A stretch of DNA of 37,633 nucleotides from Planctomycetota bacterium (GTDB taxonomy: Bacteria > Planctomycetota > Planctomycetia > Gemmatales > Gemmataceae), in the NCBI GenBank assembly GCA_016191165.1, contig JACPPF010000145.1, forward strand, positions 1-37,633. Direction: 5' to 3'. The position numbers were made by a program, and so were the translations under genes. Below are positions 19,166-24,059 of this stretch, piece after piece (the stretch's first letter is position 1; the number at the start of each line of letters is the position of its first letter). The notes under the pieces were generated by a model. It was not told where the DNA came from, searched no databases, and saw nothing but the letters and a program-made list of their open reading frames with translations.

Positions 19166-20047
19166 ATGAACCCCTATCTCCAACGTTCAATTAAACGGCG
19201 AGCGGCCACTTTGCTGGAACTGCTCATCGTCCTCACTGTCATCGCGATCCTGATCGCCCTGTTGGTTCCCGCGGTGCAAAAGGTCCGAAGCGCTGCGTAT
19301 CGGATGCAGAGCATGAATAACCTGAGGCAGATAATCCTTGCGACTCACCACTACGCCGATGCAAACAACGGCGCCTTGCCTTACCTGGACAGTTTCAGTT
19401 CTTCCTCAAGAGAACCTATTTTCATTTCCATCATGCCGTACATCGACCAGGGGGGCCTCTATCGAGCCTACCAAACGAACTTTCCGGCAAATACGACGGG
19501 CAGCGACTACCCGATTCCCGTTTACGCCAGTCCAATGGACCCAACCATCAGCGTGGTGGGGAACGGCTTCACCAGTTATGCGGCCAACGCGGTTGCCTTC
19601 TCCATCGTCCAGGCCAAGTTGCCTAGGTCATTCCCGGATGGAACGTCCAACAGCGTAGCCTACGCGGAGCATTACGCGGTCAAGTGCGGGGGTGAAACCT
19701 ATTTCATGTGGTTTAGGAGCGGCGCGAGTACCATCACCTTTGCCAATGGCTGGGGGCCTGTAACACTAAGGCGAGCTACTTTCGCCGACCGCGCGTTGGG
19801 GGATGTCTACCCTGTCACGCAGGATAACCCAGCAACATCGCGCGCCTCGGCACCCGGATTGACGTTTCAAGTCCGACCGAGCCTTGCGGAATGCGATCCG
19901 CGCCTGGCGCAAACGCCTCATGCTTCTGGCATGTTGGTGGCCCTTTTTGACGGCAGCGTGCGCAGCCTGGCGCCCGGCATGTCGGAACACACGTTTTGGA
20001 GCGCCGTCACGCCCAACGGCAACGAAGTGCTAGGCGACGGTTGGTGA
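19166..20047 (+). CDS. DUF1559 pseudopilin-like protein (copy 1)
   Basis: A 293-residue protein with a prepilin-type N-terminus (KRRAATLLELLIVLTVIAIL followed by [12 protein letters not shown]). Glu is at +5 after the presumed cleavage site, but Ala rather than Gly is at -1. The body is DUF1559, ending in the family's H-x9-DG motif ([20 protein letters not shown], near 255-275). Planctomycetes carry many of these; they are thought to be type II secretion/pilin-like surface proteins. GAGGAG lies about 8 bases before the ATG. The last 260 bases are almost identical to those of the second DUF1559 gene (23181-24059). The stop overlaps a GTG (GTGA), probably the ancestral start of the next gene. 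Confidence 0.95.
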   Translation: MNPYLQRSIKRRAATLLELLIVLTVIAILIALLVPAVQKVRSAAYRMQSMNNLRQIILATHHYADANNGALPYLDSFSSSSREPIFISIMPYIDQGGLYRAYQTNFPANTTGSDYPIPVYASPMDPTISVVGNGFTSYAANAVAFSIVQAKLPRSFPDGTSNSVAYAEHYAVKCGGETYFMWFRSGASTITFANGWGPVTLRRATFADRALGDVYPVTQDNPATSRASAPGLTFQVRPSLAECDPRLAQTPHASGMLVALFDGSVRSLAPGMSEHTFWSAVTPNGNEVLGDGW

Positions 20048-20086: not shown

Positions 20087-20887
20087 TTGGAGCCGGTGGC
20101 GCGCATGGGCGTTCTTTCGACCGCCGAAGCGCAGCTGACGATCATCGCGTTTGAGGTCTTCCTCGGCCTGTGGCTTTGGATCAGCGCGGGCGGAGCAAAT
20201 GCGCTCGGCCCGTGGCTGGCGGCTGTTCTGACGTTCACCATTTTTGCCTGCGTCACGTTCTACCTGGGCTGGGTCGGCCAATCGTCGTGCAGGTGTTTGG
20301 GCCGCTACTCACCGAGCCCCTGGTACGCGTTCGGTCTGGACGTGTTCGTGCTGGCGTTGTTGCTGGTGGGCCGGCCTGACCTGACGGCGCTGCGTGCAAA
20401 TCCGCGTGTTGCGCTGGCGGCGAATGCCTATCCGGGCGCGTGCGGATTGGGGAGCGTGGCGCTCTTGACTCTGTTGCTGGCGCTCCTGCCCATGATGGGC
20501 TTTGGCCCGCTGGGGCAAATCATCGGCAAACTGGGCGCCCACCGCGTCACCATTCAGCCGGGCCTGGCTCAAGTTGAACCCGGCGCCCCGGGCCAGCAGC
20601 GAGAAATCTCCGTCGAAATCGCCAACTGGACCGACGAACCGATTCGCCTGATCGGCGGCACCGCGGATTGCTCCTGCACCGTACTCCATGATTTGCCGAT
20701 CACCATTGCTCCCAACGAAACCCGCAGCGTCGCGGTCCGCATTGCCCTTTCGGGCCAACCTGGAATCTTCACGCGCAAGGCGGCGTTTCTCGTGGACGAT
20801 CAGGGTTTCAAGGAGATCGGCTTCACGATGACGGGCCGCATACTGAAAAATTCTGAACGTCGAGACATGGCCGCCGAAGCACGTTAG
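20087..20887 (+). CDS. MauE-like membrane protein fused to a DUF1573 domain, N-terminus truncated
   Basis: About 266 residues from TTG 20087 (260 from ATG 20105; neither start is well supported). Three or four membrane helices (IIAFEVFLGLWLWI, WLAAVLTFTIFACVTFYLGW, AFGLDVFVLALLLVG, SVALLTLLLALLPMMG) contain the MauE-type cysteine pair SSCRCLG. A periplasmic DUF1573 domain follows (residues about 165-255) with GGTADCSCTVL. MauE takes part in maturing the disulfide-rich methylamine dehydrogenase light chain; here a related redox role is inferred. Homologues normally begin one helix earlier. In this gene the frame upstream reads AGAALKAWGLGLEPV straight back to the DUF1559 stop, so the first helix appears deleted. 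A terminator overlaps its 3' end. Confidence 0.82.
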   Translation: MEPVARMGVLSTAEAQLTIIAFEVFLGLWLWISAGGANALGPWLAAVLTFTIFACVTFYLGWVGQSSCRCLGRYSPSPWYAFGLDVFVLALLLVGRPDLTALRANPRVALAANAYPGACGLGSVALLTLLLALLPMMGFGPLGQIIGKLGAHRVTIQPGLAQVEPGAPGQQREISVEIANWTDEPIRLIGGTADCSCTVLHDLPITIAPNETRSVAVRIALSGQPGIFTRKAAFLVDDQGFKEIGFTMTGRILKNSERRDMAAEAR

Positions 20888-20922: not shown

Positions 20923-21456
20923 ATGCGGAAGCTCGATGCGTTGCTGGCGTGGTTTTTCACGTCGCTGGGTTTTGCCCTGGTGGGGTTCGCCATCTTGATT
21001 GTGCCCGCGGACGCGTTCGCCGCTTACAACGGCGAGTGCGTGAACTGCCAGAATTCGTCAACTCCGTCCCAATGTGCGTCCGATTGTTGCTCCACGTTCA
21101 AGGACGACCTGACGGCGCGGTGCCAATGCTGCAACGACGCCTGCGGCGGCGATTTGGACTGCCTTGACCGTTGTGTCAAGGAAGCATGTGGGAGCGATCT
21201 GGAGTGCCAAGTCACATGCATGAACACTCAGGGAGGTAAATGCCCAGAAAAAGCTCCATCACTGGCGTGCAACGACAAATGTTTCCTAAAAATCAAGATG
21301 GTTGACGGCAAAGTGGTATTCGATTGCACCGACGGGGGAACAGGGGTTGGTACCTGTAAGAGTGATCCCAAGGCATGTTCGTCTTGCAAATGCAGAGTAG
21401 GTGTTATCACTAAGAATAAACAAATAATCTCGATTGGTTGTTATTGTGTCAACTGA
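20923..21456 (+). CDS. secreted 24-cysteine protein
   Basis: A 177-residue protein with a long signal peptide (FALVGFAILIVPADAFA, cleavage near 33). The mature part of about 143 residues contains 24 cysteines, an even number compatible with twelve disulfides. Spacing patterns include ECVNC, SDCC, CQCC, DCLDRC, ECQVTC, CSSCKC and GCYC. The first half has repeated acidic C-x(2-4)-C blocks; the second half has a beta-like stretch FLKIKMVDGKVVFDC. No known family was recognised. GGGAG lies about 7 bases before the ATG. It directly follows the MauE-like gene, whose relatives assist disulfide-rich substrates, so it is the obvious candidate client. The 3' half becomes visibly more A/T-rich than its neighbours. 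Alternatives are a metal-binding or surface toxin-like protein; there is no direct evidence for either. Confidence 0.88.
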   Translation: MRKLDALLAWFFTSLGFALVGFAILIVPADAFAAYNGECVNCQNSSTPSQCASDCCSTFKDDLTARCQCCNDACGGDLDCLDRCVKEACGSDLECQVTCMNTQGGKCPEKAPSLACNDKCFLKIKMVDGKVVFDCTDGGTGVGTCKSDPKACSSCKCRVGVITKNKQIISIGCYCVN

Positions 21457-21655
21457 GGCGGCGCGTTCCACTTTCAAAACATGGCACCCCGTTCTACCCA
21501 TACGAGGTGATCCGTAACGGCCGCGCGAAACAATCCGAAAATAGGTAAAACCCAGCGCGGAGAATCGCCGCGCGGAATCACCGAAGCGCCCGTTCAATGA
21601 GAAAACGCCTGTGCATTCTTCTTGGTCAAATTACGAAGCGACGAGGGAACCCACG

Positions 21656-22690
21656 ATGTCAAAAAAAGCCCTTTTTTCAATCACAGCGTTTGCATGTTTG
21701 GCACTCGCCGATAACCACTCGGCCACGGTCGTCCAAGACAAAACTGCAAAGGAATCATTCTTGCAGGAAGCGCCTGCCAAGTGGGCGGAATACTGCGAAC
21801 TCGCTCGTGATCTTCAGGTTACTATTAAAACGTGGAACGGGCCCGCTGGTACGGGTTTTGAAGGGCCACCCCATGAAATTTATGAGATGAAACGGAACAA
21901 ATCGGGGTCACTTCTCAGGTGGAGTTTTGAATCGGATTCTGGGAACAGATATTGTGTGGCCAACGAGAATTATGCGTTCGAATTGGGCAAAAGAAAAAAG
22001 AAGACCGATTCCTGGTTGATCAAACGAATATTCAAAAATCGTAGCCATCAGGACGCGCAGTCGTTTGTTTCGAGCGAGGTGGTTGACGAGAGCTTTGGTG
22101 GTGTCTTTGGAATTTACAAGGCGTCCATGCCTTCGGTCCTCAAGCAGGTTGGATTCAGAGTCACGAATGCCAAAACAATATGGCGAGATGGCAAGAGGCT
22201 CATCGCTGTCGGTTTTTCGTGTATTGAAGGCAAAAACGGTGGGGAAGGCCAATATGTCAACGGCGTGGTCAACTTCGACCCTGAACGATTCTGGGCGGTT
22301 GTTGATTTTCATGGAAAATACATTTGGCAGGGTGGAATGATACGATCCGAGATGCAAGGCACTTATGAATATGTCCTGAGCAAGACAGGCTTGCCAATTC
22401 CCAAATTGTCCCTGATCAAGGTCAGAGGTGTGCAGGCTGGAGAACCCTTGAATTTTGATGTCAAGAACGAATATGTGGCCGAGCAGCGTGAGCCATCGTG
22501 GGAGGAGTTTACGCTTACCGCCTTCGGGCTGCCCGAACCGCCAGGCATGCCGGCAGTGCGGTGCCGTTCGTACTGGTACCTTTGGGTTCTCGCTGCGGCC
22601 GCCGTGGCGATTGCCGTGGGTTGGGCCTTCCGCCGGCGCATGTTGCGCGGCGCGAATGCACCGGCGCCTGAGAAGGGAATAGAAATATGA
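21656..22690 (+). CDS. exported single-pass membrane protein of unknown function
   Basis: 344 residues from ATG 21656, chosen because GAGGGA lies upstream and a signal peptide follows (MSKKALFSITAFACLALA). The frame is open to 21611 with no better start. A soluble periplasmic domain of about 290 residues contains NGPAGTGFEGPPHEIYEM, FGGVFGIYKASMPSVL and VNGVVNFDPERFWAVVDF. A C-terminal membrane helix (YWYLWVLAAAAVAIAVGWAF) and a short basic tail RRRM follow. No family was recognised; the length and two-strand pattern recall the LolA/outer-membrane lipoprotein-sorting type seen in planctomycetes, but this is weak. Base composition is lower in GC than neighbouring genes until the last 200 bases. 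Its TGA overlaps the ATG of the DUF1573 gene (ATGA), implying coupling. Confidence 0.85.
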   Translation: MSKKALFSITAFACLALADNHSATVVQDKTAKESFLQEAPAKWAEYCELARDLQVTIKTWNGPAGTGFEGPPHEIYEMKRNKSGSLLRWSFESDSGNRYCVANENYAFELGKRKKKTDSWLIKRIFKNRSHQDAQSFVSSEVVDESFGGVFGIYKASMPSVLKQVGFRVTNAKTIWRDGKRLIAVGFSCIEGKNGGEGQYVNGVVNFDPERFWAVVDFHGKYIWQGGMIRSEMQGTYEYVLSKTGLPIPKLSLIKVRGVQAGEPLNFDVKNEYVAEQREPSWEEFTLTAFGLPEPPGMPAVRCRSYWYLWVLAAAAVAIAVGWAFRRRMLRGANAPAPEKGIEI

Positions 22691-23139
22691 TGGCGAGAGC
22701 CGACCAAATCCTGTCCTGGCTCTTCACTGTGACCGGCGTTACCGCGCTCGGCGTAGCGGGCTATTTCTACTGGACCGAGCTGCCGGTAGGCCCGGCCCTG
22801 GAATTCGAGGCAGTGGAGCTGGAACTCAACGATAGCGGGCCCGGACAACAGCGCGAGGTGGCGTTTCAGTTCCACAACCGTTCCGGAAAGCCGATGCGCC
22901 TTCTCGGCCTAAGCGAGTGCTGAAACACGAATTGCCGCTTCGGTTCGAAGCGAACATTCGAGGAACTCGGCAACCTGCCCGCGGGCCGTAGCGATTTCGT
23001 CACCGAGTTGAAGGTCGGCGAGTCGGGCAAGTTTGAAGGCCAACTCCACCTCTTCGTGGACGACGGCGGCACGCGCGAGATCGTCCTTGCCGTGAAGGGC
23101 AGCACGAAGCCCTCCGACAAGGAACCCGTTAAAAAATAG
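22687..23139 (+). CDS. DUF1573 membrane-anchored protein with one in-frame UGA (selenocysteine candidate or nonsense mutation)
   Basis: The frame starts with ATG 22687 overlapping the previous stop and has a signal anchor (ILSWLFTVTGVTALGVAGYF). A DUF1573 beta-sandwich follows: PGQQREVAFQFHNRSGKPMR, then LGLSEC, then UGA (22921-22923, codon 79), then NTNCRFGSKRTFEE. It ends with GKFEGQLHLFVDDGGTREIV and a TAG at 23139. No other stop or frameshift occurs across 150 codons, and the part after the UGA aligns with the DUF1573 half of the MauE-like protein (FLVDDQG versus LFVDDGG). Read through, the motif is C-U-N-T-N-C. A short hairpin sits 12 bases after the UGA. The next gene's GGAGGT follows the TAG closely. 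If the UGA is a stop, only 78 residues are made and the gene is broken. Confidence 0.65.
22936..22952 (+). promoter_or_regulatory. SECIS-like hairpin downstream of the in-frame UGA
   Basis: CGCTTC (22936-22941) pairs with GAAGCG (22947-22952) around the loop GGTTC; the closing G-C could extend it to 7 bp with loop GTT. The loop starts 18 or 19 bases after the UGA. Bacterial SECIS elements lie just 3' of the UGA, with the loop about 16-37 bases away and G near the loop start. The characteristic bulged U of the E. coli element is not evident. Confidence 0.4.
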
Positions 23140-23180: not shown

Positions 23181-24059
23181 ATGAATAGAAACATCCGTTC
23201 GTCAAAAAGGGATGGCGCGACGCTGCTTGAGTTGCTGGTCGTCATCACCATCATCGCTATTCTGATCGCGTTGCTGGTGCCCGCCGTACAAAAGGTGCGC
23301 GGGGCGGCTGCGCGAGTGCAGAGCATGAACAACCTTCGGCAAATCGTTCTCGCTTCTCATCATTTCTCTGAGGCGAACAACGGCTATCTACCAGACCTGG
23401 ACGGCTTTAACCAGGCCGCGGGCGTCCCCGACGGTTCCATTTTCCTGGCACTCATGCCCTTTATCGACCAGGGAAATCTGTTCCGCGCCTACACAGCGAG
23501 TTTCCCCGCGAACACGCGAGGGAGTGATTATTTGATCGCCGTTTTTACCAGCCCGCTGGATCCGTCGCTGTCCGTAAGCGCCAACGGTTCGTCGAGTTAT
23601 GCGGCCAATGCGGCGGTCTTCGGTCGGCAGATCAAGTCCGCGTTGCGTTTCCCTGACGGCATGTCGAATACTATTAGCTTTGCCGAACATTACGCGAACC
23701 GCTGTGGCGGCGGCACGTTTTTCAGCTGGGCGCCGAGCGGCTCAATTACCATCGACTTTGGCAACGGACCGCAGACACTTCGCCGGGCTACCTTCGCCGA
23801 CCGCGAGTTGGGAGATGTCTACCGCGTCACGCAGGAAAACCCAGCAACGTCGCGCGCCTCAATACCGGGACTGACGTTTCAAGTCCGACCGAGCCTTGCG
23901 GAATGCGACCCGCGCCTGGCGCAAACACCGCATTCCTCTGGTATGTTGGTGGCCCTTTTCGACGGCAGCGTGCGCAGTCTGGCGCCTGGCATTTCCGAGG
24001 CCACCTACTGGGCCGCCGTCACGCCCAACGGCAACGAGGTGCTGGGAGGGGATTGGTGA
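23181..24059 (+). CDS. DUF1559 pseudopilin-like protein (copy 2)
   Basis: A 292-residue DUF1559 protein with a good prepilin peptidase site: [20 protein letters not shown], cleavage after Gly, Glu at +5. The C-terminal H-x9-DG motif is [26 protein letters not shown] lies 5 bases before the ATG. It follows the UGA-containing DUF1573 gene by 41 bases. The region from about 23790 to the stop matches copy 1 almost base for base, including the GTGA overlap at the stop and the first bases beyond it, while the middle is more diverged. This indicates duplication or gene conversion. It is the last gene of the cluster on this strand; no MauE-like gene follows it. Confidence 0.95.

Follow-up and report, generated by a model that had tools for sequence, protein, structure and literature searches.

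The gene at 22687-23139 of the window, the 37,633-nucleotide stretch of planctomycete DNA, specifies a small membrane-anchored protein whose single in-frame UGA almost certainly encodes selenocysteine. Because the folding energy of a hairpin in a single sequence is only modest evidence, the case had to rest on comparison with relatives. The genome to which the window belongs as contig 136 measures 7.2 Mb and is 95% complete (G000); the gene and its surroundings comprise the following features.

19166..20047, + strand: DUF1559 pseudopilin-like gene, start of the cluster
20087..20887, + strand: MauE-like membrane domain plus DUF1573 domain, with a CxC in each; lacks the N-terminal segment of a paralogue
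20923..21456, + strand: Cys-rich protein of 177 aa with 24 Cys, hydrophobic near the N terminus and ending in CxC
21611..22690, + strand: LolA/LolB/DUF1329-like gene with transmembrane anchor, likely start 21656, ending in TGA
22687..23139, + strand: selenoprotein gene, transmembrane helix plus ASH/PapD-like DUF1573-type domain, 150 aa across the UGA
22921..22923, + strand: UGA codon 79, almost certainly selenocysteine, Cys in aligned homologues (column of 26 UGA and 60 Cys)
22936..22952, + strand: SECIS hairpin, core starting 13 nt past the UGA, supported by conservation, covariation and folding
23181..24059, + strand: DUF1559 pseudopilin-like gene directly downstream of the selenoprotein gene

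The selenoprotein reading frame contains one TGA, at codon 79, and is otherwise open as far as a TAG stop, so that the continuity on both sides of the UGA described in the initial annotation is confirmed. The translated context of codon 79 is ...GLSECUNTNCRFGSK..., that is, C-U-N-T-N-C. The start codon ATG shares bases with the TGA that ends the preceding gene (21611..22690), and the locus presents no promoter-like site and no excess of terminator-like signal. Among the window copy and two paralogous copies on contig 176, dN/dS after the UGA is approximately 0.07-0.33. The region 3' of the UGA is hence under purifying selection among paralogues, and the codon-level check proposed with the initial annotation bears out its view of this part as real coding sequence.

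Stop-tolerant searching of 59 relatives, followed by an order-wide search of 102 genomes and local re-alignment, located TGA at one identical column in 26 homologues from 17 genomes, 14 genera and two families of the order, extending down to 25% identity. Most of the better matches among the 59 relatives have exactly one TGA, as do three paralogues in the window genome (two on contig 176 and one on contig 34). In 60 other, more distant DUF1573-type sequences, the codon-79 column holds TGC or TGT. The initial annotation had pointed to Arg, Trp or Gly codons at this position as the mark of a nonsense mutation, and none of the three is present among the aligned homologues. Apart from gaps, the other rows comprise a single Tyr, an Ala whose alignment is poor and two outlying UGA rows (L123 and L124); the homologue in the genus-mate G003 carries an additional in-frame TAG. 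A phylum-wide search of 392 genomes returned almost no other DUF1573-type matches with TGA, which indicates that stop-tolerant searching is not the source of the UGA signal. On a tree of 42 sequences, about seven exchanges between Sec and Cys are needed and at least two are forced by well-supported branches. Repeated exchange of this kind is the usual history of selenoproteins.

The hairpin had been placed at 22936-22952, with its loop 18-19 nt from the UGA, and both assignments hold. The arms CGCUUCG (22936-22942) and CGAAGCG (22946-22952) enclose the loop GUU (22943-22945), and the core can be written as GCUUC (22937-22941), loop GGUUC (22942-22946) and GAAGC (22947-22951); a 45-nt stretch has a minimum free energy of -13.4 kcal/mol (z = -2.3 against shuffles). 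The pattern GCUUC-(5 nt)-GAAGC occurs exactly 13 nt past the UGA in 24 of the 26 UGA members and in none of the 60 Cys forms, an identical spacing that argues against the earlier reservation that such a short hairpin could have arisen by chance. Twenty-two of the 24 read GCTTC-NGTNN-GAAGC, one has the loop AGGTT and one a G-U stem pair. The two UGA members that lack the pattern, both from the same genome (G012), could instead form the stem TTGCT...AGCAA. Positions 1 and 4 of the loop covary (G-C in eight, C-G in seven, A-U in five and G-U in three members, with one exception), C pairing with G in 7/7 instances, and the outer hairpin pair is U-A or C-G in 13/24.

The reading frame divides the hairpin as NGC-TTC-NGT-NNG-AAG-CNN, and the residues it encodes at the variable codons are R/C/S, then G/S/R, then R/H/Q/P/L, sets united by their codon letters rather than by chemistry. 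Codon choice is correspondingly skewed relative to the rest of these genes: NGC goes from 35% elsewhere to 24/24 in the hairpin, TTC from 61% to 24/24, AAG from 51% to 23/24 and NGT, counted among G/S/R codons, from 13% to 23/24, in a binomial test that takes no account of relatedness. The family offers a clear instance of an RNA signal within a coding sequence dictating the permitted amino acids.

Loop size, G position and spacing agree with the published bacterial SECIS model, which calls for G among the initial positions of the loop and a spacing of 16-37 nt (PMC13188914). The stem sequence, however, is nearly invariant in this family, with the covarying pair at loop positions 1 and 4, and the bulged U of the E. 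coli fdhF-type element is absent, as previously noted. Scanning the 102 genomes of the order with the UGA-plus-hairpin pattern yielded 23 forward matches, 22 of them in the selenoprotein family, compared with two for a backwards control pattern. The remaining match (L167:2022-3233, - strand, G006 contig 185) lies in a gene for an unrelated 404-residue secreted protein with the motif GCGU and an identical hairpin 13 nt past its UGA. This protein has no Pfam match and weakly matches NF041383, a model for thioredoxin-like selenoproteins, making its gene a candidate of that class. The use of one hairpin at one spacing by two unrelated genes suggests that this hairpin is what the SelB of this group recognises, and it provides a defined target for the study of SelB-SECIS recognition in planctomycetes.

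The search for selA, selB, selC and selD suggested by the initial annotation identified three of the four components in the window genome: SelA (474 bits), SelB (361.6 bits, against a cut-off of 242) and a tRNA-Sec (73 bits, against a tRNA-Ser background near 45) that ARAGORN calls SeC with anticodon TCA (UCA). Searches for selD with the family model and with the protein of a genus-mate found nothing above cut-off in the assembly, whose completeness is 95%. Of seven other genomes searched, five have selD. Since one of these is the genus-mate G003, a gap in the assembly would be the simplest explanation for its absence. Across genomes, tRNA-Ser reaches as much as about 56 bits in the tRNA-Sec model, and SelA was therefore used as the marker of the trait. 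SelA was found in 17/17 genomes with the UGA form and in 10/12 with the Cys form. This difference lies in the direction expected but falls short of significance (p = 0.16), the Sec trait being present in most of the order. Two genomes of one genus in another family of the order (G037 and G038) harbor the Cys form without SelA, and showed no selD match over cut-off and no tRNA-Sec in the true score range. The Sec trait has been reported earlier in planctomycetes, including Gemmata obscuriglobus (PMC4807772).

A nonsense mutation or a sequencing error in a decaying paralogue, accompanied by a fortuitous hairpin, would be in keeping with the damage to other copies, and the lesions in nearby genes raised earlier are real: the MauE-DUF1573 gene of the window is truncated, and on contig 26 of the same genome (L121, near 30930, - strand) a selenoprotein paralogue is broken by a deletion across the Sec site, in which the Sec codon was lost together with the hairpin's 5' half; this copy is a pseudogene formed by loss of the recoding site. 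Decay, on the other hand, does not explain the same UGA in 26 homologues from independent genomes, a hairpin kept at synonymous positions or purifying selection past the UGA, and we regard it as extremely improbable. That a suppressor tRNA or a reassigned one inserts another amino acid (Cys or Trp) at the UGA is, in our assessment, very improbable. A UGA-reading Cys tRNA would yield a working protein, given the Cys of the homologues, but Trp is never present at this column, and the neighboring genes end in TGA as a normal stop; these include the overlapping upstream gene, for which TGA acts as the true terminator. Moreover, tRNA-Sec, SelA, SelB and the SECIS hairpin already account for the read-through. 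Selenocysteine insertion is thus the reading that we adopt. SelB and tRNA-Sec would decode UGA 22921-22923 under the direction of the SECIS hairpin, with the spacing to its loop fixed at 18 nt.

The AlphaFold2 model of the selenoprotein (pLDDT 92) consists of an N-terminal helix (residues 2-30) and a beta-sandwich, with an ASH/PapD-like, DUF1573-type domain spanning about residues 36-144. In fold comparison this sandwich is of the ASH/PapD/HYDIN kind, with many ASH/PapD entries at Z 8-11 and rmsd 2.3-3.8, and a ciliary central-pair chain (VIA) aligning over 100 residues (Z 11.3, rmsd 2.3). In sequence comparison, the window protein has no Pfam match, and none to DUF1573 (PF07610) at its curated cut-off, while 6 of 19 family members match PF07610 weakly (E up to 0.1, best 1.3e-5). 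The selenoprotein is nonetheless related to DUF1573. No NCBIfam model covers the family, and a sequence search of the PDB recovered no relative. In the model, strands 70-78 and 83-87 have Sec79 and Cys83 between them or at their start. Cys83 is retained in most family members and Cys78 is missing from several, so that the adjacent Cys-Sec pair, to which a redox role had been tied, is not what the family conserves.

The genes around the selenoprotein gene recur in other genera, with both Sec and Cys forms, in the order MauE-DUF1573, Cys-rich, LolA-like transmembrane, selenoprotein or Cys homologue, and DUF1559, although not all five are present at every locus, contig ends being part of the cause. 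The membrane half of the MauE-DUF1573 protein contains a CxC, and most members have a second in the DUF1573 half; the match of this protein to MauE (PF07291, cut-off 27) is 19.4 bits in the window and 23.3 bits in the contig 176 paralogue. The window gene (20087-20887) lacks an N-terminal segment present in the paralogue, and its remnant begins directly past the DUF1559 stop, as if recombined. Given this truncation, the cluster may be only partly functional in its window copy. Contig 176 holds two more cluster copies with the UGA gene; a region there at 54000-72000 (L120) contains MauE-DUF1573, Cys-rich and LolA-like genes in a tandem array of four units, and the selenoprotein gene is included in two of these units.

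The Cys-rich family, with up to 24 Cys, is found beside the MauE-DUF1573 gene at L120, L121, L122, L149, L152, L154, L172 and L173 as well as in the window. Its small proteins, with a hydrophobic stretch at the N terminus, end in C-x-C in all genera compared, and the members scanned have no Pfam or NCBIfam match; we consider the protein a candidate redox substrate. The modeled product of 21611..22690 resembles LolA/DUF1329 in fold (Z 12.1, rmsd 5.7, 204 aligned residues) and has a conserved C-terminal stretch, F-x-L-[ST]-x-[FY]-G-x-x-E-P-x-G. At one locus (L040, G032 contig 160), the LolA-like protein is fused to a DUF1573-type domain without Sec or Cys at the site.

A Sec/Cys protein encoded with MauE-like and Cys-rich neighbors, together with the precedent of MauE, leads us to infer a disulfide system. 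For MauE, a part in forming the disulfides of methylamine dehydrogenase has been a matter of speculation (PMC7794033, citing van der Palen 1997). As in the MauE/MauD arrangement, the neighbors of the MauE-like membrane protein include a Cys-rich exported protein and a presumed redox partner, but here the partner is an ASH/DUF1573-type selenoprotein instead of the thioredoxin-like MauD, and the MauE match falls below the Pfam cut-off. The cluster showed no genes for methylamine dehydrogenase. The selenoprotein would be held by its one N-terminal helix with the beta-sandwich presumably outside the cytoplasm, where Sec79 and Cys83 could form a selenenylsulfide on a beta turn. It could then act as a thiol-disulfide oxidoreductase together with the MauE-DUF1573 membrane protein on the Cys-rich protein of the cluster, whose redox state may in turn affect a pilus-like surface structure.

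A participation of the selenoprotein in thiol-disulfide exchange with its cluster partners has a prospect approaching, at best, an even chance, the partner and substrate being guessed from gene order. The fuller scheme is more tentative: a dedicated selenium-dependent disulfide system in which MauE-DUF1573 would exchange electrons with the ASH-fold selenoprotein, and the latter would form, reduce or shuffle the disulfides of a secreted 24-Cys protein of a pseudopilus-like structure. It is likewise conceivable, if somewhat doubtful, that the selenoprotein is not a disulfide oxidoreductase and serves in selenium or metal binding, as a peroxide sensor or as a structural part of a pilus-like assembly. 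Its fold is ASH/PapD-like and not thioredoxin, such folds often being binding or scaffold domains, and the cluster member at L040 manages without any Cys or Sec; the exchange of Sec for Cys, the second Cys four residues on in most members and the MauE-like and Cys-rich neighbors speak against a role of this sort. As a disulfide pathway, the conserved cluster is amenable to testing.

The suggestion of a new selenoprotein stands as to selenocysteine, yet the protein is not the first of its kind: a DUF1573 selenoprotein with the motif UGC (PF07610 entry) is included among the more than 110 families of reviews from 2022 and 2026 (PMC9312934, PMC13188914). In the alignment, the Sec of the present family takes the place of the leading Cys in the usual DUF1573 Cys motif, which is where a UGC motif implies Sec, and the beta-sandwich domains belong to the same superfamily. 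In contrast to the UGC protein, the present family carries C-U-x3-C (U-x3-C), possesses an N-terminal membrane anchor and its own conserved cluster, and in the genomes searched is confined to two families within a single planctomycete order. It is a distinct variant beside the known UGC protein, adding a membrane-anchored selenoprotein on a non-thioredoxin fold, and its redox motif U-x3-C does not appear in the available part of the published family table. Weak matches to the OS_HP2 family (seleno)protein model NF041425 (E 0.006 for one family member and 0.074 for the MauE-DUF1573 protein) are far below the model cut-off. Our literature search found no paper joining DUF1573 with MauE and no joint treatment of planctomycete SECIS elements, the supplementary list of PMC4807772 lying outside the comparison. 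Gene callers cut such proteins at the UGA or miss them, and the family is probably misannotated wherever it is present. In another planctomycete family, one DUF1573-type gene (L123, G389 contig 183) has its UGA in a U-G-C motif, with a possible hairpin of its own (GGUCG...CGACC), and is probably an instance of the known UGC-type DUF1573 selenoprotein.
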